Shown here piece by piece: positions 1,026 through 43,461 of a stretch of 46,417 bases of DNA (position 1 is the stretch's first letter; every line of letters starts with the position of its first letter). The stretch comes from a virus. The position numbers were made by a program, and so were the translations under genes. The stretch covers positions 1-46,417 of IMG/VR virus record IMGVR_UViG_3300032278_000019, one strand, 5' to 3'. Below the pieces are notes generated by a model. That model made no database searches. It had not been told where the DNA came from and saw only the letters and a list, made by a program, of their open reading frames with translations.

Positions 1026-1124
1026 TTAGGCGGCTTCGGTGTCGAACTTGCCCGCTTCGTCGCCCCATGCAGTCCAGCCGGGGCGGGTTTCCCGGCTGAA
1101 GAGGTCGGCCCGGCGGGCTGTCAC
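1026..1124 (-). CDS. Small hypothetical protein (32 aa)
   Basis: GTG start overlaps the methylase stop codon as GTGA, and the stop lies 14 bases before the next ATG, so it fits tightly in the leftward operon. The peptide contains DLFSRETRPGWTAWGDEAG, an acidic, tryptophan-bearing short segment. I recognise no domain. The tight coupling is the main support; it may instead be untranslated spacer. Confidence 0.5.
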   Translation of the reverse strand: MTARRADLFSRETRPGWTAWGDEAGKFDTEAA

Positions 1125-2137
1125 GCGGCGCTGCCGAACAGCGACAACGCCTCCTGCTCGGCGCGCTTGAGGTGGCCGGCGGCGAGGTCCGCATATTCCG
1201 GCTTGAGTTCGATCCCGATGTATTGGCGGCCGAGGCGTACCGCCTCGTGGCCGGTCGAGCCGATGCCGTTGAACGGGTCGAGCACGACGTCGCCGGGGTT
1301 CGACCACATCAGGACGGCACGCCGGATCAGGTCGAGCGGCATCGGGCAGATATGCCGCTCGTCATCCTGCCCTCTGGCGCCCTTCCAGCCGTGCAGCACG
1401 TCCGTTTCGCGTGTGTCCGGCCAGACGGGCGAGGCCCATTCCTGCCACTGATCGAGCGGGAAGCTGGCCAGCTCGGCAAGCCGATCGGCCGCGGCAGGTC
1501 CAACCTTGAGGCCGGCCGCCTGCATGCGAGCCGCGCCATCCTCGCCCAGCTCGCGGGCGATGCGGCGATAGGCTTCCTCGCCCCATTTCTCGGTCGCGTG
1601 CGGCACTGCCTCGCCGTGCTTCACGCCCTTCGACTCTTTGCGCAGGACGAGGAGATATTCCGGCATGCCAGGCGCGCAGGCGCGGGCGTTCTCCCCGATG
1701 TTTTTGTAGAGGAGCCGCTCCGGGTTCGACTTCGAGCGCTCGAGGACCGGACAGCGCCAGATCGTCGTCCGCGACCGCATGTCGAGTCCGGTCTCGCGGT
1801 GGATCGACAGGGCGAGGTCCGAGAAGGGGAAGATGCCGGACGTGCCGGTCGCGGAAGACCCGGCATAGTAGACGACATCCTTCACGTGATTGACGAGGAT
1901 CGCGCCAGGTTTGAGGACTCGCGCCATCTCCTGCGCTGCATACCGGTAATGATCCGCGAACTCATCGTGGCTCGCTGAGTTGCCCATATCGCGCTCGCTG
2001 TCCGAATAGATGTAGAGCGCGGAGAACGGGCAGGAGGTGACTATCAGGTCCACGCATTCATCCGGCATCCCCGCCAGGATCTCGGTGCAGTCGCCATTGT
2101 AGATCGCCCAGGCATCGCCTTCGTGGTCAGGCCGCAT
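1121..2137 (-). CDS. DNA methyltransferase, beta-class N6A/N4C type
   Basis: Transfers a methyl group from S-adenosylmethionine to DNA. The catalytic segment TSCPF lies at about residues 34-38, followed by YSDSERDMGN, which is typical of phage methylases that travel with a DEAD helicase. The SAM-binding DPFNGIGSTG is near residue 287, so motif IV precedes motif I, as in the beta class. The family usually has SPPF or DPPY at the catalytic site; the cysteine here is unusual. Start chosen at 2137 (GAGGAGAATTGATC before ATG); it overlaps the helicase by 11 bases. Protection from host restriction or regulation of phage promoters is inferred. Confidence 0.88.
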   Translation of the reverse strand: MRPDHEGDAWAIYNGDCTEILAGMPDECVDLIVTSCPFSALYIYSDSERDMGNSASHDEFADHYRYAAQEMARVLKPGAILVNHVKDVVYYAGSSATGTSGIFPFSDLALSIHRETGLDMRSRTTIWRCPVLERSKSNPERLLYKNIGENARACAPGMPEYLLVLRKESKGVKHGEAVPHATEKWGEEAYRRIARELGEDGAARMQAAGLKVGPAAADRLAELASFPLDQWQEWASPVWPDTRETDVLHGWKGARGQDDERHICPMPLDLIRRAVLMWSNPGDVVLDPFNGIGSTGHEAVRLGRQYIGIELKPEYADLAAGHLKRAEQEALSLFGSAA

Positions 2138-3527
2138 GATCAATTCTCCTCTCCATGAACTTCGGTAGGGTGACGGCCTCTGGCCGCGTGTAGGGAAGGC
2201 GCAGCGCGCTCGACTGGCCGGCATCGCGCATCGCGCGCACCATTTCGCGCTTCATGCGGTCGTGCTCTTCGGCCTTCCGCTGGACATTGGCCCAGACCGG
2301 GCGTTCCGTGTCCGTGATGATGACGTGGCAGTCGACCGGCGCCGTTCGGCCGAAACGCCAGGAGCGGCGGACGCCCTGGTAGAAGGCCTCGTAGGAGTGC
2401 GAGAGCGAGGCCCAGACTTGTGTCCCGCAGTGCTGCCAGTTGACGCCGAACCCGGCGAGCTTGGCCTTGGTGACGAGCGTCTCAATCTCGCCGCGTCGGA
2501 AGGCGGTCAGCAGCTCCGCCTTGCGGTCAGGGTCCATGCTGCCGAGCAGTTCGACGCCGCTGGTGGCTTCCGCGAGAGCCGCGCTTTCATCGTTGCGCTC
2601 GCACCACACGACGGACGGGCCGTGCGCCTCCGCGACCAGGCGGGCCGTCAGGTCGCAGCGGTCGCGGACCGTGCGCGCTTTCTCCGCTTGCAGCCCGGTC
2701 GCGGTCGTGTCCGGAATGCGGAAGAGGTCGCCATCGGCCGCACCATCGGTGAGATCGGTCTCAATGACATGCGCGTGCCGTCGCAGTTCGGGCAGGATGT
2801 AGCCTGTATCCTCTCCGCCGAGGTCGGAAGGCAGCGCCGCCGAGCGGGCCCAGCTCGCCACCCAGCGCCAGAACGGCCGGACCGCATGTCCCTTAAGGCG
2901 ATAAGCGCCCATCTTCGTCTGATCGGTCACGAACCAGCGGGACAGCATCTCATTGCCCGGCATGACGCCGAGAAAGTCGGACTGCTGCCCGATCTCCACG
3001 TGATCGTTCGGTGCCGGCGTTGCGGTCGCGGCTAGGCGGTAGGGTGTGTTCTCGAATCCCTTCCGGATCGCAGTGCTGACCTTCCCGCCATAGGCCTTCA
3101 GGATCGACGCCTCGTCGAGGCACACGGCGCCGAAGGTTTCGAGGTCGAGCTTATGAAGCCGCTCGTAATTCGCGACATAGACGGCAGGACGGGCGATCTC
3201 GGCCTGCTCGCGGATGACGGCAGCTTCGACGCCGAACGCCTCGCATTCCTCGCGCATCTGCTCCGCCACCGCGAGCGGCGTTAGGATCAGCGCAGGCTTG
3301 TTCGTCTGCCGAACGCACTGGTCTGCGAAGACGGCTTGCACGCCGGACTTGCCGAGGCCCGTGTCTAAAAAAGCCGCCGTGCGCCCCTCTCGGCAGGCGA
3401 AGTCCACGACGGCCGCCTGATGGGCGAAGAGGCGAGACGGGAGCGCGCCGGGCTGAAAGCCGCCGCTCATGGTCCGGTTGCCGCTCTTCGATGCGATGAA
3501 AGCGCGATAGGTCGAAAGCTCGCTCAT
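2127..3527 (-). CDS. SF2 DEAD/DEAH-type helicase
   Basis: 466-residue ATP-dependent helicase of superfamily 2. Walker A is DTGLGKS (about 55-61), motif II DEAS (138-141), motif III TATPAP (168-173) and motif VI QGVRRSWRFGR (about 384). The arginine-rich motif VI with WRFGR is the form seen in phage Snf2/DEAD-like helicases paired with a methylase. It overlaps its neighbours at both ends (ATGA at 3524, 11 bases with the methylase), so the three are translated as a unit. A role in phage DNA replication or recombination is inferred. Confidence 0.88.
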   Translation of the reverse strand: MSELSTYRAFIASKSGNRTMSGGFQPGALPSRLFAHQAAVVDFACREGRTAAFLDTGLGKSGVQAVFADQCVRQTNKPALILTPLAVAEQMREECEAFGVEAAVIREQAEIARPAVYVANYERLHKLDLETFGAVCLDEASILKAYGGKVSTAIRKGFENTPYRLAATATPAPNDHVEIGQQSDFLGVMPGNEMLSRWFVTDQTKMGAYRLKGHAVRPFWRWVASWARSAALPSDLGGEDTGYILPELRRHAHVIETDLTDGAADGDLFRIPDTTATGLQAEKARTVRDRCDLTARLVAEAHGPSVVWCERNDESAALAEATSGVELLGSMDPDRKAELLTAFRRGEIETLVTKAKLAGFGVNWQHCGTQVWASLSHSYEAFYQGVRRSWRFGRTAPVDCHVIITDTERPVWANVQRKAEEHDRMKREMVRAMRDAGQSSALRLPYTRPEAVTLPKFMERRIDHAA

Positions 3528-6053: not shown

Positions 6054-6265
6054 GCGGCGGCGCCCGTGACGCCGTGCTTCGCCTCGAGCTGGTCCAGCTT
6101 GCGCAGTGCTGCGTTGAACGTCGTGACGGTGACGTCCTTCCCCTCGCGCAGCAGGCCGAGCCGCTTGCTGTCTTTGAAGAGCTTGTTGCTGAGCGTGCTC
6201 TCGCTCCAGCCGACGGCGTCGCGCAGCCGGTCGCAGCGTTCGATGAGGGGGGCATAAGGGCTCAT
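6050..6265 (-). CDS. Cro-like helix-turn-helix protein
   Basis: 71 residues with GWSESTLSNKLFKDSKRLGL, a compact helix-turn-helix resembling phage Cro-type or excision-control regulators. It is divergent from the LexA-like repressor and its promoter is covered by the GGGTWATWACCC palindromes, the classic cro position. ATG 6265 lies 7 bases after a CATAGT -10 element, so the mRNA is probably leaderless. It begins the leftward early transcript. Confidence 0.7.
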   Translation of the reverse strand: MSPYAPLIERCDRLRDAVGWSESTLSNKLFKDSKRLGLLREGKDVTVTTFNAALRKLDQLEAKHGVTGAAA

Positions 6266-6272
6266 GACCAAG

Positions 6273-6301
6273 ACTATGGGTAATAACCCAGAATGGGTCA
6301 A
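6273..6301 (-). promoter_or_regulatory. Leftward early promoter (Cro-like gene)
   Basis: On the minus strand TTGACC (6301-6296) and CATAGT (6278-6273) are spaced by 17 bases. The operator TGGGTAATAACCCA overlaps the -10 and spacer; a second palindrome sits just upstream of the -35. Predicted transcription start is at or one base from the ATG at 6265. Confidence 0.7.
6277..6290. promoter_or_regulatory. Repressor operator 1
   Basis: TGGGTAATAACCCA is a near-perfect palindrome (12 of 14 positions). It overlaps the -10 and spacer of the leftward promoter. The same motif family recurs at 6302, 7134 and 7152, so it is the probable binding site of the LexA-like repressor and/or the Cro-like protein. 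Confidence 0.75.
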
Positions 6302-6313
6302 GGGTAATTACCC
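6302..6313. promoter_or_regulatory. Repressor operator 2
   Basis: GGGTAATTACCC is a perfect 12-base palindrome, 24-25 bases from operator 1 and thus about two helical turns away on the same face. A GGGT half-site (6295-6298) lies between them. This spacing favours cooperative binding of two dimers. Confidence 0.75.
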
Positions 6314-6350
6314 ATTAGGCCGAACATTACCGATGTGGGATGAACCCTCC

Positions 6351-6962
6351 ATGGAAACGTTCGCTGATCGATTGAGGCGGCGGCTCCGAGAGGTCGACAT
6401 AAGCATGCGCAAAGCCTCGCTTGATGCTGGGCGCAATGAGACGTGGGTGCGCGATCTGCTCCATGGCAGGACGCAGATGCCTTCCGCCGAACATCTCGAG
6501 AAGCTCGCCGAGGTACTAGACTCTTCCCCGCAGTGGCTCTTACATGGAGGGGAACACAGCGGGAACGTCGGTGGCAGGACCGTCCCGCTCGTCGGCCACG
6601 TTGGGGCGGGGGCAGAGATTCTCATCATTGACGATCACGCCAAGGGCGCTGGGCTTGAAGAAGTCGCTGCGCCGCCGGGAGCGCCACGCTCGACCATCGC
6701 CGTGCGCGTGCGCGGCGAAAGCCAGCTCGGCCGGTTTGATGATGGCGACATCATCTTCTACAGCGAGCACTTGCCGCCGGACGACCTGGTCAACCGGCGC
6801 GAGTGTGTCGTGAAGCTGGCGGACGGGCGGCTGTTCGTGAAGCGGCTCGTGCGCGGGAGCGGGCAGGGGCTTTATACGCTGCTCAGTTCGAATGCGGCGC
6901 CGATCGACGATGTCGCGGTCGAGTGGGCAGCCAAAATAGACGCCGTCTCTCTCGCTTACTGA
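6351..6962 (+). CDS. LexA-like (S24) phage repressor, CI type
   Basis: 203 residues: an N-terminal XRE helix-turn-helix (about 3-55) and a C-terminal S24 peptidase domain. The LexA-type cleavage site is in VGHVGAGAE (Ala86-Gly87); the catalytic dyad is Ser124 in RGESQLG and Lys164 in FVKRL. This repressor should cut itself when RecA is activated, giving SOS induction. Start taken at 6351 (GGGATG upstream); 6334 is an alternative. It faces the Cro-like gene across two operators. It maintains lysogeny by blocking both early promoters. Confidence 0.9.
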   Translation: METFADRLRRRLREVDISMRKASLDAGRNETWVRDLLHGRTQMPSAEHLEKLAEVLDSSPQWLLHGGEHSGNVGGRTVPLVGHVGAGAEILIIDDHAKGAGLEEVAAPPGAPRSTIAVRVRGESQLGRFDDGDIIFYSEHLPPDDLVNRRECVVKLADGRLFVKRLVRGSGQGLYTLLSSNAAPIDDVAVEWAAKIDAVSLAY

Positions 6963-16564: not shown

Positions 16565-16855
16565 CTAGTCCTCCTTCCGCGGGGCGCGGGCGGCTTCGTC
16601 TCGCCAGGCGCGGCGTTCCCGCCGCTCTCCCGCCTCGCAGCGCAGGGCGGCGGCCTGGTGCAGGATCAGGTCGGCGAGCGTCGCGCTGTCAGCCACGGGG
16701 CATGGCTCTGTCGGCTCCTCGGGCGGGAGCACGGTCACGGTCCGCACCGTCTCGACCAGATCCGGCGGGGGCGGCTCCGGTGTCGTTCCACAGGCGCTCA
16801 GCGAGGCCGTCAGGGACAGGCAGGCCGAGGCAGCGATCAAGTTCAGGGTTCTCAT
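16565..16855 (-). CDS. Rz1: o-spanin, Rz1-like outer-membrane lipoprotein
   Basis: 96 residues with a signal peptide and lipobox SLSAC, followed by a proline-rich PEPPPPDL segment as in Rz1. After lipid attachment it would sit in the outer membrane and span the periplasm with Rz to fuse the membranes. Its first 167 bases overlap the Rz gene in another frame, the classic nested Rz/Rz1 arrangement. Confidence 0.8.
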   Translation of the reverse strand: MRTLNLIAASACLSLTASLSACGTTPEPPPPDLVETVRTVTVLPPEEPTEPCPVADSATLADLILHQAAALRCEAGERRERRAWRDEAARAPRKED

Positions 16856-17225
16856 TCCGGGCTCCTTGCAGGGCGGCGGCGGCATTGCGGGCCGCATCGC
16901 GCTCCCGCTCGGCTTCGGTCTCGGCGGCGGAACGCTGGGCGCGCTCTGCGGCGAGGATGGTGGCGAACCGCTCGCGCTCCGCGGCGGCGTTGGATTGCAG
17001 GCGGGTGATGGCCTCGGTTCGGGCCTGCGCGGCGGCTTCCCAGCGCACCGCGGCGGCGGCCTTCTGGTCGCGCTCGGTCTCGAGGCGATCCGCGCGGGTC
17101 TCGGCCGTGCCGAGCTGGACGAGAGACCAGACCAAGGCGGAAGCGAGGGCGCCGACGATGGCGAGGGCAAGCCCCGCTACGACGCGGGGGCGTTTCATGA
17201 CAAAGGCGAGGGCAGCCCCGATCAT
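16689..17225 (-). CDS. Rz: i-spanin, Rz-like inner-membrane protein
   Basis: 178 residues: one N-terminal membrane helix (VVAGLALAIVGALASALVW), a long Ala/Glu/Arg coiled coil and a C-terminal ELDRCLGLPVPDGLAERLW typical of Rz. Start at 17225 overlaps the endolysin stop by ATGA. Forms the inner-membrane half of the spanin complex. Confidence 0.85.
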   Translation of the reverse strand: MIGAALAFVMKRPRVVAGLALAIVGALASALVWSLVQLGTAETRADRLETERDQKAAAAVRWEAAAQARTEAITRLQSNAAAERERFATILAAERAQRSAAETEAERERDAARNAAAALQGARNENPELDRCLGLPVPDGLAERLWNDTGAAPAGSGRDGADRDRAPARGADRAMPRG

Positions 17226-17767
17226 GACAGCACCTCGTCGTGCCCTTGCAGGAAAACGCGCCGCTCGACCTCGCGGCGAGAAGTCAGGACGTGGGGCTGC
17301 CCGCCCGCGCGGTGCCACCGCAGGAACTGGTCAGCCGCCTCGGCGCGATGTTCGGCATTGAGCTTGCGGACCAGGGTCGAGTCCCGCAGCGCTGACCGTC
17401 CGATATTCCAGCAGAGCGAGACCAGCGCATCGAACTCGTGCTGCGCGAGCGGGACCGTGACCGAGGTCAGCACTGCCGTCTCATAGGCCTGCAAGCCGAG
17501 CTTCAGGAGCTCGTCGGCATAGGCCTGCTTGATCGTGACCGTGCGGCCCTGCTCGGCGGCAAAGGCCACCGCATCGGCGACGCTGTCGAACCGGCGTCCT
17601 TCCCAGAGCAGGTCGTGCGTCCAGCCATACCCAATGGTCCAGACCCCGGCGACGTCCTGATAGGCTTCGAGCTCGCAGCCCTCGAAGCGCTTCAACAGCG
17701 CGCGGCCCTCCGCGGACAGGCGCGCAGGGCGTTGCGCCGCCGCGATGGCGGCGGGTGGATAGGTCAT
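17222..17767 (-). CDS. Endolysin, T4-type lysozyme (GH24)
   Basis: 181 residues with the GH24 catalytic triad Glu29, Asp38 and Thr44 in FEGCELEAYQDVAGVWTIGY, exactly the E-x8-D-x5-T spacing. It hydrolyses peptidoglycan. No signal-anchor helix is visible, so export needs the holin. Start at 17767 has an AAGGAGCCCCCC site; a longer frame upstream lacks one. Confidence 0.92.
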   Translation of the reverse strand: MTYPPAAIAAAQRPARLSAEGRALLKRFEGCELEAYQDVAGVWTIGYGWTHDLLWEGRRFDSVADAVAFAAEQGRTVTIKQAYADELLKLGLQAYETAVLTSVTVPLAQHEFDALVSLCWNIGRSALRDSTLVRKLNAEHRAEAADQFLRWHRAGGQPHVLTSRREVERRVFLQGHDEVLS

Positions 17768-17924
17768 GGGGGGCTCCTTGGGAACGCAGCATGAACGTCG
17801 GCTGCGGCTGCGCGTTGCGCTGGCCGGGCCTGAGACTCGTCCTACTGTCAGAGGATTAGAGGCGCGGCCGGTGCTGGAACACCGCCGCGCCCTGACCATG
17901 AGCGCCTGTGAAGGAGGCACCACC
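17768..17924 (+). promoter_or_regulatory. Leader between endolysin and CTERM gene
   Basis: 157 bases between divergent genes. GGCGCGGCCGGTG (17861-17873) pairs with CACCGCCGCGCC (17880-17891) to form a stem in the leader of the plus-strand gene. AAGGAGG (17911-17917) is placed 7 bases before a TTG start. No clear -35/-10 could be assigned. Confidence 0.45.
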
Positions 17925-18518
17925 TTGGCCATTTCTGGTAACGCTATTCGTCTGTCCGCAGCCAGCGCCGCAGCTGCTCTTTTCTCCGCAGGAACGGCAT
18001 TTGCCGCGCCTTATGTCGGGGAGATCAGCGCTTCACAGGACGGCGAGGTGATCGGCACGACCGAGTTCACTTTCGATCCCGAGGTCGCGACGGTGATCAG
18101 CCGCCCGCTCGGCGACGGCACAAGCGAAGTCCTCACGGTCTACGGCTACATCGAGGATCTGACGCTGCCGATCGGCACGCTGTTCGGAGAGCACTTCTGG
18201 CTGGGTAACGATCCGCAGAACCCCAGCTTCACCGCGCTCGACACGAGCGGCCTCCGGAACGGCTTCGAGGCGCAGCCGTCTTGGTGGGTCTTCTCCGACA
18301 GCAGCGATTATGTGAGCGCCACCTTCTCCTACGGGCTGTCGTTCGACGCGGTGCAGGACAGCTTCGTCGCCGTTGTCATGGCGGACGGTCAGGCCGCTCC
18401 GCAGTTCGACGGCCTGACCTTCACCGTGACGCTGTCTGAGGCGGTCCCGCTGCCGGGAGCCGCCCTGTTCCTGCTGACCGGACTAGGCGGCATCGCCGCT
18501 TTCCGCCGTCAGAGGTAG
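17925..18518 (+). CDS. Exported VPLPA-CTERM protein (moron)
   Basis: 197 residues from a TTG start chosen for the AAGGAGG site 7 bases upstream. It has a signal peptide (cleavage near residue 28), a beta-rich body and a C-terminal sorting signal at about 174-197: VPLPGAALFLL, a glycine-rich membrane stretch and FRRQR. This tripartite tail is the VPLPA-CTERM type seen in Rhodobacteraceae, processed by exosortase-like enzymes. It lies on the opposite strand to all surrounding late genes and overlaps the spike gene by 10 bases. A role in altering the lysogen surface is inferred. Confidence 0.8.
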   Translation: MAISGNAIRLSAASAAAALFSAGTAFAAPYVGEISASQDGEVIGTTEFTFDPEVATVISRPLGDGTSEVLTVYGYIEDLTLPIGTLFGEHFWLGNDPQNPSFTALDTSGLRNGFEAQPSWWVFSDSSDYVSATFSYGLSFDAVQDSFVAVVMADGQAAPQFDGLTFTVTLSEAVPLPGAALFLLTGLGGIAAFRRQR

Positions 18519-21217
18519 TATCCCGTCAGCCCGCTGACGTGCGCCTCGAACGCTTCCTGCGCCGCCTTTACCGCTGCGGCGTCGGAGGCATAATAGTCGT
18601 TCGCCGCGGCCGCGTTGAGGAAGTCGAGCGTAGCTTGTCCGATCCGCTGATGCGGGGTTAGTCCCAGTTCGCCAGCCGTCGCACCCGGCGGCACGGCCGG
18701 CGAGGCAGGCATGAACCTCACATAGTCGGCATAGGGGCCGGTGATCTGCCCGAAGGCCTCGCGGATCGTCCAGGAGGTCGCCTCGATCTGCCCATAGGTG
18801 TTGAAGTCCGATAGGCCCTTCACGCCGGCCGCAACCGCCTCGTCGTTCGTGCAGGCTTGGATCAGGCCGTTATAGAGCGACTTCGTGTACCAGACCCAGA
18901 AGGGGCGCAGAACCGACCAGTACTGCGGGTGGTTCTCCCACTCCTTGGGCAGGGTCGTGTGCTTCCCGCCCTCGTAGAACGCGACGTCGGTTCCGATGTA
19001 GACGTCGGTGAACGCCTTGATCGCGGCCCAGCGCTTCTGGATCCCTTCGCGGCATGAGTTCAGGGCAGACTGCCCGTTCCCGTTCCCCTCCGGCTTCTCC
19101 ATAAACGTTTTCAGACGAGCGTGGGCGATCTCATGATAACGATCCGAGCCGGGGCCATGCCCGTCGAGATAGGCGGCCAGGGCGTCAATGTCAGAGCCGA
19201 CATGATCGCCGTTCTGATCGATGGTCCAGAACGGCGCGGTGTGGAAGAAGGAAGAGTAGTTCTTACCCACATGCGCCGCATTCGAGATGTTCGCGTTGAA
19301 GTAGTTCGCGACCGACAGCTCGAAGTAGTCGCCGAACCATTCCCACAGATCGCCGGTCGGGATCGGGGCATAGTCATCAGCGTCGAGACGGCCAGCGTTC
19401 ACGTCATCAATGAACTCCAGCACTCCCTCGGCGAAGAGCGCGGCGCTGATATTGACTTCGGACGCGCCGTTGCGGCCAAGGCCGAGGCGGGCGTGGTCGA
19501 AGAATAGCCCGCTGAGATAGTCCGACTGGCCTGGCGCCCGCATGCGCCACTCGATGCCGGGCTGGACCTTGCGAAGCCGAAACGCGATCTCGGCGGACGC
19601 ATAGCCGTTCTCGATCCGGTTCGGCAGCGTGTTGACGCGCGGCGTGATGCCGTATTTCGCGAGGCGCCGCTCCCGCCGGATGAGAAGGTAGTTGGCGCCC
19701 GGGCCGTAGGGTTGCGAGTTCGCCCCCCAGGTCTCGTTGGAAAGCTCGACCACGAGCTGATTGTTCACCAGCAGATCGGCGTTCTGCGCCACGCTCTCCG
19801 CGAAGCGGTCGACGTGCTCGTAGCGGTAATCGTTCAGGAGCGAGAGCCTGGTGTCGAGCGGGATGGCCGTGTTCGCCAGGACCTCCGTGCCGAAACCCCG
19901 GTCGGTTTGGTCGAGGACGCTGCGGTCCTGCATGGTGACGAGGTCGCCATAGTCGAACCGGGCGATCATGTCGGCGTCGATATGCTCTTCCTCGGTCGCC
20001 CATTCGAGGCAGGCGACGGGCAGGTTCGCCTCGTAGACGCAGCCGTGTTCCCACGCCTCTTGCAGGCGTGCCTTCAGCGGCCAGGCCACGGTTTCGGCGC
20101 CAGTGCCCCCGATCAGGTCGCGCCGGTAGCCTCCGATGTAGCTGTAGGTCGGATTGTTGTGGTAGCGCCGCGCGGTCTGGTCGTAGAGCCCCCAGAGATA
20201 ATCGTCCTCGTCGCCGAATTCCTGGAAGCGGATGCCGTTCGTCCAGTTGCTCCCGAGGAACTTGGCGTGGTTCATGTCCCGGTAGCGGCCGTAGCCATGC
20301 GCCGCCACGACCGCGCGGCGGTCCGTGAGCCTGCCCGCGGCCCAGCGCGCTTCCGCGTCGGTCGGATCGCCGAACTGGTCGTGCGTCTGAAGCAGGACAA
20401 AGCTCGCTGTGGCCGGATCGCCCGCGGTGATGGCGAGGTGGAAGCCGGTCGTGTCGCCATCCGAAATGGTGATCGTGCCGCTTTCGCCGGGGCCGACCGT
20501 GACCGTGCCGAGCCCGCCGGCACGGGGTTCGAGGTTGATCGTAAGATCCGGGCTGTCATTGATCAGCTTGAAGGTGCCGTAGCTCTCCGCGCCCGCCGCG
20601 CCGCGCCCGTTGTCGTCGTAGAACAGGTTGTGGATGACGAGCGCATTTCCTGATGCCGGATCGTGATCGGCGGGCCAGAGCGGCAGTCGGTTCTCAGCGA
20701 AGTTCAGCTCGTGCGGCTGGAGCAGAATGGTTCCGCTGCGCGGTCCGGCACGATAGGTCGCCTCCGTCATGAGGCGATCCTTCGGGAGGATGTAGGTCAG
20801 CCCGCCATAGCGCACATTGCTGTGCTGGAGCTGCACGGTCTGCTGCATCGGCGTCAGGGCTGCCGAGGTGCCGAACATGGCGGTGCTGCGATCCAGGACG
20901 GTGATGGCCGTGGAGCCTGGCACGGCGGTTCCGCTGTCATCGGTAACGGACCATTCGACCGTTTCATCGTTCGCTCCGCCTGCCGCGTAAGAGACGGCCG
21001 TGTCTCGGATTACCGTGCCGGTCGAGGAGACGGACCAGCCGGGCGTCGAGACCGCATAGCTGTAGGGCAGCGCGCCGCCAGACGCGACGATGACGAAGCC
21101 GACCGTGTCGCCGTCCTGCATGGTCGCGGCGGTCGGCGTGGCGGCGGTCGAGAAGGTGCCAGGCTGCGGCTGGACCGGCGGCGCGGGAGTGATCCCGAAG
21201 GCGGGAAAGTAGACCAT
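18509..21217 (-). CDS. Tail spike/receptor-binding protein with glycoside-hydrolase-like domain
   Basis: 902 residues. Residues about 1-110 form Ig-like beta repeats (attachment part). The large middle has features of a clan GH-A (beta/alpha)8 barrel: an Asn-Glu pair in VVELSNETWG near residue 493 (acid/base position) and a Glu in FYEGG near 748 (nucleophile position). It probably binds and cleaves a host surface polysaccharide. Start at 21217 has an AAGGAG site. Family assignment is by motif only; no known spike matched by eye. Confidence 0.7.
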   Translation of the reverse strand: MVYFPAFGITPAPPVQPQPGTFSTAATPTAATMQDGDTVGFVIVASGGALPYSYAVSTPGWSVSSTGTVIRDTAVSYAAGGANDETVEWSVTDDSGTAVPGSTAITVLDRSTAMFGTSAALTPMQQTVQLQHSNVRYGGLTYILPKDRLMTEATYRAGPRSGTILLQPHELNFAENRLPLWPADHDPASGNALVIHNLFYDDNGRGAAGAESYGTFKLINDSPDLTINLEPRAGGLGTVTVGPGESGTITISDGDTTGFHLAITAGDPATASFVLLQTHDQFGDPTDAEARWAAGRLTDRRAVVAAHGYGRYRDMNHAKFLGSNWTNGIRFQEFGDEDDYLWGLYDQTARRYHNNPTYSYIGGYRRDLIGGTGAETVAWPLKARLQEAWEHGCVYEANLPVACLEWATEEEHIDADMIARFDYGDLVTMQDRSVLDQTDRGFGTEVLANTAIPLDTRLSLLNDYRYEHVDRFAESVAQNADLLVNNQLVVELSNETWGANSQPYGPGANYLLIRRERRLAKYGITPRVNTLPNRIENGYASAEIAFRLRKVQPGIEWRMRAPGQSDYLSGLFFDHARLGLGRNGASEVNISAALFAEGVLEFIDDVNAGRLDADDYAPIPTGDLWEWFGDYFELSVANYFNANISNAAHVGKNYSSFFHTAPFWTIDQNGDHVGSDIDALAAYLDGHGPGSDRYHEIAHARLKTFMEKPEGNGNGQSALNSCREGIQKRWAAIKAFTDVYIGTDVAFYEGGKHTTLPKEWENHPQYWSVLRPFWVWYTKSLYNGLIQACTNDEAVAAGVKGLSDFNTYGQIEATSWTIREAFGQITGPYADYVRFMPASPAVPPGATAGELGLTPHQRIGQATLDFLNAAAANDYYASDAAAVKAAQEAFEAHVSGLTGYYL

Positions 21218-21230
21218 ATGCGGGGTCTCC

Positions 21231-22511
21231 TTACGCTGCGCTGATGGTGACTGAGATGTCGGATGCAAAGGCATCCGCGGTGTCTGCGACGGTCTCGACG
21301 CCGAAGATCAGCGCGCCTCCGGAGGCCTTCAGCTGCAGCTCGACTTCGTTCTTCGCGCCCCCCTGAACGGCAGTAGCAACAACAGCGCTTTCCGCCCCGT
21401 CGCGGACCTGCTGGCCGCCGTAGGAGAGATTGCCGCTAAGACCGCTTTGCAGCGAGGCTTGGTCAATCGCGACCGTGGCGACCTGGTTGCCCGCGTCGTC
21501 GAAGAAGTCGAACGGCAGCGTAATCATGCCGGTCGACACGAGCCGTTCGTTTGGCGAGGCTAAAGAACCCGCATTGTCGTCGGAGAACGTGTGAGTGAAG
21601 TTTTGCGCCCCACCACCGCCACCGCCCGTGACCAGAACAGCGCCCGGAATCCCGATGCTGACCGAGTTGCTGCCGCTTTCGCGGGTCCACGTGACGACAG
21701 GCGGGTCCTGCGTATCGTCGATCGAGATATCGACGAAAGGATCGGCGCTCGATCCCGTGCCGCCAGTCGGCAGGTCGGGGAAGGCCCCCGTCAGATCTTC
21801 GTCCTGCGGGTTCTCTCCGTTCGGATCGCTCTCGATGAAGCGCCGGACCTTCCGCGCGGTGACATTGCCGCTCTGGTCCTTCTCGACGATACCGACGGTG
21901 CGGGCCGGATCGATCCGCTGGCCTTGCAGGGTGGCGATGGAGTCGCGCGCGGTCTGGTCGACGGTGCGTGCTGCGGACCACTCCGCCTCGCTGAGCGGCG
22001 TGCGGCCTGCGGCGGTCTCGACGTCGACATAGGACTGATAGGCGCTTCTGCCGTCAGCGCCGTCAGCGCCGGGCGCGCCGTCTTGGCCATCAGCGCCTTG
22101 CAGGGAGGCAAGCCAGTCGGCGAGCGAGAGGGGAGTTCGTCCTGCGGCTTGCTCCTGCTGGACATACAGACCGTAAGCGTCGAGACCGTCGGCGCCCGGC
22201 GCCCCGTCCTGACCGTCACTGCCTTCGAGGGAGAGCAGCCATTCGTTCAGCGGCAGAGGCGTGCGTCCCGCTGCGGTCTCCGCCTCGGCGTAAAGCTCCC
22301 ATGCGCTCTGACCATCCGCCCCGTCGCTGCCCGGATCGCCCTTCGGGCCGGCAGGCGCGTTCTCGCCCGCCTTCTGCGCGATGACGCCGAGCGGCATGAA
22401 GCCGTCGTCGCCGAGAACGTTGCCGTCCGGACTTTCGACGATCGGCACCTTGTGGTGCTCGGACCAGGCGCTCGGTTGCTGGTTGGGCGTGACGAGGCGT
22501 TCTTCCGCCAT
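21231..22511 (-). CDS. Collagen-like tail fibre protein with internal repeats
   Basis: 426 residues. Three repeats (about 67-200) share AAGRTPL.L.EWL followed by a G-x-y stretch such as GQDGAPGADGL; the G-x-y parts would form short collagen triple helices in a trimer. The N-terminus (RLVTPNQQPSAWSEHH) is probably the virion-attachment part, and the C-terminus is beta-rich. It precedes the spike gene by 13 bases, so the two likely form the receptor-binding apparatus. Confidence 0.78.
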   Translation of the reverse strand: MAEERLVTPNQQPSAWSEHHKVPIVESPDGNVLGDDGFMPLGVIAQKAGENAPAGPKGDPGSDGADGQSAWELYAEAETAAGRTPLPLNEWLLSLEGSDGQDGAPGADGLDAYGLYVQQEQAAGRTPLSLADWLASLQGADGQDGAPGADGADGRSAYQSYVDVETAAGRTPLSEAEWSAARTVDQTARDSIATLQGQRIDPARTVGIVEKDQSGNVTARKVRRFIESDPNGENPQDEDLTGAFPDLPTGGTGSSADPFVDISIDDTQDPPVVTWTRESGSNSVSIGIPGAVLVTGGGGGGAQNFTHTFSDDNAGSLASPNERLVSTGMITLPFDFFDDAGNQVATVAIDQASLQSGLSGNLSYGGQQVRDGAESAVVATAVQGGAKNEVELQLKASGGALIFGVETVADTADAFASDISVTISAA

Positions 22512-41627: not shown

Positions 41628-41803
41628 GCGCGTCTCCAATTCTGGCGGACCGGCGCGAGGCACAGGAGGCCGATGGCCTGCGTGCGCTCAAGCGCGGCGA
41701 AGGTGACGAGGGCGAGCAGGCTGGCCAGCACCAGGGCGAGGATCACGAAGGCGACCAGCGCGACGAAGACCATGCCCGGCGCGTGGCGGCGGAGCCGGAT
41801 CAC
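41624..41803 (-). CDS. 59-residue membrane protein between terminase and portal
   Basis: GTG start overlaps the large terminase stop as GTGA; the stop overlaps the portal ATG as ATGA. The peptide has a basic start (IRLRRHAPG) and one long membrane helix (VFVALVAFVILALVLASLLA), then a basic end. The exact coupling on both sides is strong support. It could dock packaging or the prohead to the membrane, or be a lysis or exclusion factor; not recognised. Confidence 0.65.
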   Translation of the reverse strand: MIRLRRHAPGMVFVALVAFVILALVLASLLALVTFAALERTQAIGLLCLAPVRQNWRRA

Positions 41804-43461
41804 AGGCCGTCCCAGCTGTAGGAGCTGGCAGGAGGACAGGGCCAGAACGCCATCATCACGGCATCGGCCATGTTCGGCGAGCGCGTCCCGGACGGGGTCT
41901 TGTTGACCAGCAGCTTCATGCGGGCGCTCTTTCCAGAGGTGGGCTGGCTCAGCTCCTTCTCGAGCTGGCGGAGCCGGGGCATGCCGCCGTCGAGACTGAT
42001 CATCTCATCGGGCGAGAAGGTCACGCCCTCCGTCACGGCGCGGTGCGTCTTCTCGAACCGGCGCCGCAGCTGCCACCAGCCCTGCGCCTTGAGGTTGGCG
42101 TAGAAGTCTCGGTTCAGCGGGGTGTCCTCGTCGTCCGGCTCGACATGACCGTCAGGGTTCAGCGGCCCGGCGCCGGCGTCCCACGAGACGAAACGGACGC
42201 CCTTGGGAAGCAGGTGCTCATCATCGAGGCGGTTGGCCTCCGCCTTCACGCCCGCTCCGACACCGATCGAATCGTATTGCAGCTCGACCCCACCGAGTCC
42301 TTCGCAGGCCGCGAGCGCCTTGCGCGTCGTCGTGCCGGTGTCGCGTTCGCCCCACTCGTCGACCGAGCGCAGCACGACGCCTTTTCGGAGCGCCAGAGCG
42401 TTGAGGTCCTTGCCTTCGTCGGCAACGTCCAGCGCGCCGACCCAACCCCCATCGTCCGAGAAGCCGAGCTTTACATGCGCGTCGATCGCGGAGCGGACCC
42501 ATTCGGCCGGGATGATGACGCCTTCGACCGAGGCGGCGTAATTACGATCGACCTCCTGGGCGAAGGTGTGCAGCAGGCCTTCAGCTTCGGCCTTGGCCCG
42601 GCGCTGCTCATACCACTCCTCGGTCTTCGCCGGATGATCGCGCCAGTCCATGACGAAGACGTTCGCCCGGCGCGGGTCCAGAGGTTCGCCCGGCATCCAT
42701 TCCTTGCCCGCCTCGCGGCGGCGGTGAAACACGTTGCCCAAGCCCTTCACCGACGAGATATCGATCTGGACCCGGGTGTTGTCGGCCAGCGCTGCCTCGA
42801 TCAGCTCGGGCCGCTCGTAGTGCGCGCTCTCATCCTTGAAGTAGATCAGCTTCCGGCCGCCGCGCCCGATATTGTCGCCAGCCTCACCCGTTATCGTCGC
42901 GCCCGTCTCGGGGTTGAGGATCTTCATGTAGGTCATGTGATCCGAGGTGAAGCCGTCCGGCAGCAGGAAAGCGGGCAGGCGCCGAATGATCATGCGCATC
43001 TTCTCGAAGATGCTGTCGGGATCGCCGATCCGGTCGACCAGCCCCTCTTTCCGCGAGCCCCAGCCCACTGCCGCGCCGGGCCAGGCCAGCCAGAGCCAGA
43101 CCGAGAACGCGGCGCAGACCCATGTCGCGCCCATGTCGCGCGCCTTCTCGATCAGCCCGCTCGCCTCGGCACCGAGGCAGTCGGACAGGAAGGTCACGAG
43201 GTCGGCCTGCCGCGGGAACATCTGCAGGGGCAGGTGCGCGGGAAGGTCGGTGCTCGCATTGCGCGGGTCGTAAGTGTCGACCCAGTGGTTGATGAACTCG
43301 ACCGGGCGGGTCCGGTAGTATTCCTTGGCGCCGATCCGCGCGGCAATGTCGTCCTTCAGGCGCCGGAGCTGTTGCTGACGCCAGGCATAGACCGGCAGGA
43401 CGTCAGGCGGCCAATGGTCACTCCGGATCCCCATCGGCGGCGAGAGTGCGGGCATAGGCAT
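41800..43461 (-). CDS. terL: Terminase large subunit
   Basis: 553 residues. The ATPase has EKARDMGATW (about 105-114) in place of the classical Walker A, as in this phage subgroup, and Walker B LIYFKDES (about 205-212). The nuclease part has Asp in GALDVADEG, YDSIGVG and SPNMADAVM. Pumps and cuts DNA. Start at 43461 chosen for AAGGAGG 6 bases upstream; 43434 lacks one. Confidence 0.92.
   Translation of the reverse strand: MPMPALSPPMGIRSDHWPPDVLPVYAWRQQQLRRLKDDIAARIGAKEYYRTRPVEFINHWVDTYDPRNASTDLPAHLPLQMFPRQADLVTFLSDCLGAEASGLIEKARDMGATWVCAAFSVWLWLAWPGAAVGWGSRKEGLVDRIGDPDSIFEKMRMIIRRLPAFLLPDGFTSDHMTYMKILNPETGATITGEAGDNIGRGGRKLIYFKDESAHYERPELIEAALADNTRVQIDISSVKGLGNVFHRRREAGKEWMPGEPLDPRRANVFVMDWRDHPAKTEEWYEQRRAKAEAEGLLHTFAQEVDRNYAASVEGVIIPAEWVRSAIDAHVKLGFSDDGGWVGALDVADEGKDLNALALRKGVVLRSVDEWGERDTGTTTRKALAACEGLGGVELQYDSIGVGAGVKAEANRLDDEHLLPKGVRFVSWDAGAGPLNPDGHVEPDDEDTPLNRDFYANLKAQGWWQLRRRFEKTHRAVTEGVTFSPDEMISLDGGMPRLRQLEKELSQPTSGKSARMKLLVNKTPSGTRSPNMADAVMMAFWPCPPASSYSWDGL

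Follow-up and report, generated by a model that had tools for sequence, protein, structure and literature searches.

A probable exosortase substrate encoded beside a phage tail spike gene and its possible role in adsorption

What would a tailed phage gain from a gene, placed directly beside that of its last tail spike, whose product carries the sorting signal of a bacterial surface-protein pathway? In bacteria the PEP-CTERM proteins have signal peptides, are mostly encoded as single-gene units, are paired with exosortases of the EpsH type, and their systems co-occur with exopolysaccharide production (PMC1569441). The gene considered here comes from IMG/VR, in a record 46,417 bp long that is classed as linear; all of this record was analysed and is referred to below as the window. 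An earlier interpretation made from the letters alone (the sequence-only reading) had proposed a surface protein that is sorted by the host and might block re-adsorption. The gene and its parts are the following.

17925-18518, plus strand: gene for the VPLPA-CTERM surface protein (197 aa, read from a TTG codon), with a TIGR03370 match, a Shine-Dalgarno sequence and a homologue in Parvularcula oceani
17925-18005, plus strand: putative signal peptide for Sec export (residues 1-27, cut after AFA), by inspection and hydropathy
18006-18443, plus strand: mature domain without known family, residues 28-173, 92% identical to P. oceani
18444-18515, plus strand: sorting tail of VPLPA-CTERM type, made up of VPLPG, a hydrophobic stretch and RRQR and aligned to positions 1-24 of the 25 in TIGR03370
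17833-17924, plus strand: leader in common with the P. oceani cassette (blastn), with a GC-rich hairpin at about 17861-17891 and the Shine-Dalgarno sequence

The translation of 197 aa opens with AISGNAIRLSAASAAAALFSAGTAFA, continues with APYVGEI and ends with SEAVPLPGAALFLLTGLGGIAAFRRQR. The elements on which the sequence-only reading was based are all visible: the N-terminus has a typical h-region and an A-F-A cleavage site (by inspection and hydropathy), and the C-terminal VPLP motif is followed by a hydrophobic peak (residues 179-193, with a Kyte-Doolittle average of 2.0) and then by RRQR. The assignment to the exosortase-type substrates is backed by the curated model TIGR03370 (NCBIfam VPLPA-CTERM). 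The search with this profile, which had been suggested as a check, gave a match to residues 174-197 of 27.7 bits (E 2e-6), modestly above the curated cut-off of 25.35 bits. Searched against the DNA of the record, the model yielded 31.2 bits (E 1.7e-8) and this match was the only one. Moreover, a tail built in this way is found in only one ORF of the window, against an average of 0.005 in windows randomised with a first-order Markov model. The mature domain had no match in Pfam or PHROG and no relative in the PDB, and AlphaFold, given a two-row alignment, returned a pLDDT of 38, too low for use. The protein contains no lipobox and no Cys after the signal peptide.

The TTG start is preceded by AAGGAGG at 17911-17917 with a spacer of 7 nt. 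An ORF of 250 aa that starts at 17766 was set aside as an upstream extension, the ribosome-binding site, the signal peptide and the homologue all favouring the TTG. A promoter was sought for the gene and none was identified. The leader hairpin is present in both the phage and P. oceani and its folding energy is not clearly above that of shuffled sequences; a role as regulatory RNA is unsupported, as the folding statistics were not significant and comparison of the two sequences shows only one compensatory pair.

The surroundings of the gene are those of a phage, as the following features show.

16565-17170, minus strand: candidate Rz1-like spanin of the lysis module (PF23793 LysC, E 3e-4, below cut-off)
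17222-17767, minus strand: endolysin (phage lysozyme; PF00959, E 3e-36), start at 17767 inferred
18509-21274, minus strand: the last of the tail spike genes (921 aa), which encodes NETW and YEGG motifs and converges on the VPLPA gene
6264-6962, plus strand: CI-like repressor (phrog_4 transcriptional repressor, E 2e-22)
41800-43461, minus strand: terminase large subunit (phrog_2), a phage hallmark

The spike ORF (18509-21274) overlaps the 3' end of the VPLPA gene by 10 nt in a tail-to-tail arrangement; the ORF coordinates thus confirm the position claimed earlier, adjoining the spike gene and on the strand opposite to the late genes. On the other side the endolysin ORF as called runs from 17222 to 17932, its PF00959 domain covers residues 81-223, and an ATG with an AAGGAG ribosome site can be read at 17767. 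The called ORF is therefore probably too long at its start, and the endolysin and VPLPA genes probably diverge across a gap of 157 nt.

The replicon is a genuine tailed-phage genome. Its minus strand encodes the terminase, portal, MuF, protease, major head protein, tape measure, NlpC and TipJ as well as a collagen-like fibre, the spike and the endolysin, and its plus strand encodes Gam, RecT, an O-like replication initiator and the CI-like repressor. The possibility that exposed host flank had been mistaken for phage was ruled out, since the VPLPA gene has phage lysis genes on one side and tail genes on the other. The nearest terminases are up to 67% identical in IMG/VR and 58-60% identical in Rhizobium and Pseudanabaena phages (58% for those of Rhizobium). 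Outside the terminase the gene content is mosaic relative to these phages; a VPLPA match was found in none of the 38 records with a related terminase, and a search with TipJ returned no viral relatives. The presence of the CI-like repressor together with Rha/Ant makes a temperate lifestyle likely; neither an integrase nor a tRNA was found in the window. Near the left end (1121-3527, minus strand), the gene for a DNA N6/N4 methyltransferase overlaps that for a helicase.

A scan of 84,980 species genomes, IMG/VR and INPHARED revealed one homologue of the protein, in Parvularcula oceani JLT2013, and in 385 class-level and 62 family-level genomes the further matches were weak or limited to the sorting tail. 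The two mature domains share 92% of their amino acids, the signal peptides only 46%. At the DNA level the match (blastn) comprises 661 nt at 85% identity (L2 9850-10501 to window 17833-18485); it begins 92 nt before the start codon and ends near the end of the gene. Since it includes the 92-nt leader, the cassette appears to move together with its leader. In the mature domain dN is 0.036 and dS 0.243 (dN/dS about 0.15), and 24 of the 33 differences fall on third codon positions; on this comparison of two sequences the gene is protein-coding and under purifying selection. Divergence is far greater in the signal peptide and sorting tail than in the mature domain, and the P. oceani copy by itself scores 23.1 bits with TIGR03370, just under the cut-off of 25.35.

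In P. oceani the gene is flanked by a tyrosine integrase (L002:5555-6793) and tRNA-Thr(tgt), and a 47-nt stretch of the tRNA 3' end is repeated perfectly (L002 5367-5413 and 11746-11792). The att-like repeats thus delimit an integrated element of 6.4 kb (L002:5367-11792), which carries the VPLPA gene as cargo and in which no phage structural gene was recognised. As the gene occurs both in a phage and in an integrase element, it behaves as mobile cargo of two kinds of element, and we regard it as very probably a mobile exosortase substrate.

The genome of P. oceani encodes one exosortase, XrtD (TIGR04152, 499.5 bits; cut-off 400), which is the enzyme named for VPLPA substrates. Among 299 sampled genomes of the order XrtD was detected in 39 (38 over the cut-off). 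All 39 are from the P. oceani family, of which about 60 members had been sampled, and none was found elsewhere in the sampled order. Strong homologues of the spike were limited, in the same order sample, to two genomes (G455 and G713), both of this family, with XrtD and rich in VPLPA proteins. Because the sole homologue of the VPLPA protein, the distribution of XrtD and the strong spike homologues all lie in one family, the host is likely to be Parvularcula-like. The Rhodobacteraceae, named as host group by the sequence-only reading, find no support. The proposed check for an exosortase gene came out positive for P. oceani, the only organism with a homologue. That a host XrtD delivers the phage protein appears quite likely to us.

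The nature of the spike bears on what such delivery could serve. Its homologues (L151 and L152, 27-36% identical) are secreted-type host proteins encoded beside hisG-like genes, and a polysaccharide flippase gene (PF13440) is located close to L152. The spike motifs N-E-T-W (513-516) and Y-E-G-G (767-770) are invariant among the homologues and are what we would presumably see for the acid/base and nucleophile glutamates of clan GH-A glycosidases. They suggest a new glycosidase group, and our working reading is that the spike may degrade exopolysaccharide; neither Pfam, the PDB nor structure prediction (AlphaFold on the spike alone, pLDDT 33) supported a glycosidase fold. As its motifs are common to a host protein beside a flippase gene, the spike would fit a contest that centres on exopolysaccharide. 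A HEIAH motif was rejected as the mark of a metallopeptidase, since homologues lack it, whereas NETW and YEGG are invariant. The spike has its homology with secreted proteins of Parvularcula-family bacteria and not with known phage spikes.

We scanned IMG/VR with three DNA patterns for VPLPA and PEP-CTERM tails. VPLPA-type proteins were found in at least eight other records, of which G424, G425, G427, G428, G740, G741 and G742 exceed the TIGR03370 cut-off and G739 (L165) falls below it. L099 and most matches of the loosest pattern were dismissed as chance, and L102 scored far below the cut-off. In four of the eight records, three of which (G740-G742) are not independent, the gene stands tail-to-tail with the last spike or fibre-like gene, with a 3'-3' gap between -25 and +16 nt (-10 nt on the same scale in the window). 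More specifically, the partner in G740 (-4 nt) is the last in a tandem row of three fibre-like genes, with the endolysin beyond; in G741 (-25 nt) and G742 (-13 nt) the partners are fibre-like genes, and in G428 (+16 nt) it is a PKD spike downstream of a J-type fibre. In G425 the gene faces Rz1, holin and endolysin, in G424 it directly follows a fibre-like gene on the same strand, and in G427 and G739 it lies at other positions.

Proteins with a PEP-CTERM (VPEP) tail are encoded in IMG/VR phage contigs at least a dozen times (L103-L120). Their genes converge with a fibre-like gene in L117 (-13 nt), L110 (+115 nt) and L112, and less certainly in L106 and L108; in L103 the flanking genes are a tail gene and an endolysin, and the remaining cases lie elsewhere. 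Several of the genes called fibre-like here have no tail HMM match and were assigned by size, order and repeats. A tblastn search of named phages with a 30-aa consensus tail gave no matches; it gave none in plasmids either, so the query was uninformative.

The VPLPA mature domains show no mutual similarity in blastp, even within G740-G742, which share fibre N-termini and have similar signal peptides. Unrelated mature domains are as expected if each protein targets a different receptor. The fibre C-termini of G740 and G741 also differ. Three isolate proviruses (L185:10460-11026, L186:3848-4510 and L187:126-893) encode proteins with a common start MRAFAL, a sorting tail and unrelated mature domains.

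Taken from established PEP-CTERM/exosortase biology, the route of the protein would start with export by Sec, and the C-terminal stretch would anchor it in the inner membrane; the host XrtD would recognise VPLP(A/G) and hand the protein to the outer envelope or the exopolysaccharide layer. The position of the gene suggests expression independent of the late genes, probably by the prophage, and a function in adsorption. Once on display, the mature domain could cover, occupy or alter the polysaccharide or protein used by the spikes of this or of rival phages, which would lead to superinfection exclusion and/or keep progeny from sticking to lysed cells. The location beside the spike, the opposite strand, the recurrence in unrelated phages and the replaceable mature domains fit a spike-matched exclusion or decoy protein. 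That the gene is a conversion gene acting at the surface is in our view rather probable; that its product blocks adsorption is a tentative proposal, somewhat short of an even chance. The account as a whole, of a moron gene whose product reaches the host surface via XrtD and functions in adsorption, stands about evenly balanced.

The conversion gene might instead serve the architecture of biofilm or exopolysaccharide (adhesion, floc formation or attachment to particles), a gain in host fitness with no part in exclusion. PEP-CTERM proteins and exopolysaccharide are indeed tied to flocs and biofilms (PMC1569441), and an advantage to the host would most simply explain why the P. oceani copy has been kept, given that no phage structural gene was recognised in its small integrase element. 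The benefit of the gene therefore need not concern the spike, and its persistence away from one in P. oceani fits a host-protective as well as a host-fitness role. The repeated pairing with a spike or fibre gene in several phages is, however, not predicted by this alternative, which we consider unlikely. Still less probable is an action late in the lytic programme, in which the protein is displayed or released at lysis and keeps new virions off exopolysaccharide and debris or aids the spike: the junction of tail and lysis genes in the window, G740, G425 and L103 would suit it, but in the window and most relatives the gene and the late operon occupy different strands, and an exosortase step would need time in a dying cell. 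That the gene is a passenger picked up by chance from a host, without phage function and merely tolerated at a tail-to-tail site, is very unlikely given the low dN/dS of the mature domain (about 0.15), the conserved leader and the recurrence with unrelated sequences, even though the tail/lysis junction is a tolerant site, PEP-CTERM genes usually stand alone and so can move singly (PMC1569441), and the 38 records with related terminases lack the gene.

Superinfection exclusion by a sorted protein may be compared with several known systems. With the VPLPA-CTERM/XrtD system (TIGR03370, TIGR04152) the phage protein shares a putative signal peptide, a variable mature domain and a tail of VPLP, hydrophobic stretch and Arg-rich end, and XrtD is present in the genome of the homologue; unlike in that system, the gene resides on a phage and an integrase element and not at a host chromosomal locus, and the exosortase must be that of the host. 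The Lom/Bor-type morons of lambda are likewise stand-alone envelope-protein genes in late-region junctions, but their products are an outer-membrane barrel or a lipoprotein, are not exosortase-sorted and affect the cell differently. Ltp-type exclusion lipoproteins block DNA entry. Those of Streptococcus thermophilus phages resemble the present protein in being temperate-phage proteins exposed on the host surface (PMC3952083); they differ as Gram-positive lipoproteins with another anchoring. The closest parallel in gene order is Llp of T5, an exclusion lipoprotein that blocks FhuA and whose gene is adjacent to and downstream of that for the receptor-binding pb5 (PMC9586334). As in the Llp/Cor family, a small envelope protein is encoded beside a receptor-binding gene, where the receptor-binding role of our spike is inferred and the role in adsorption presumed. 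The phage protein, known here from its sequence, differs from that family in its exosortase sorting and lack of homology; neither a PHROG match nor a lipobox places it there.

Surface-acting accessory genes of phages are already known, and what is new is the probable exosortase route. The sequence-only reading knew of no phage moron of this class. Genes of VPLPA type do occur in the other IMG/VR records listed above; a prior description of an exosortase-sorted phage gene was not found in a literature search that left most subscription journals outside its coverage. We know of no established role for most exosortase substrates, and the phage gene beside the spike gives one of them a direct candidate function, the blocking of the adjoining spike. 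If true, this would add to superinfection exclusion a route that hijacks a sorting pathway and needs no lipoprotein, and it would account for part of the patchy distribution of VPLPA/PEP-CTERM proteins. It is conceivable, though doubtful, that a general class exists: exosortase-sorted (VPLPA- or PEP-CTERM) proteins encoded tail-to-tail with a spike or fibre gene, with mature domains that are freely replaced and spike-matched, which block adsorption via host sorting in exopolysaccharide-making Gram-negatives. A sorting tail together with convergence on the last fibre gene would then be a simple signature for the mining of viral databases. In one PEP-CTERM contig (L112:2142-3437) two signal-peptide proteins are encoded in succession, the first with a PEP-CTERM tail, and a convergent tail fibre gene comes next.
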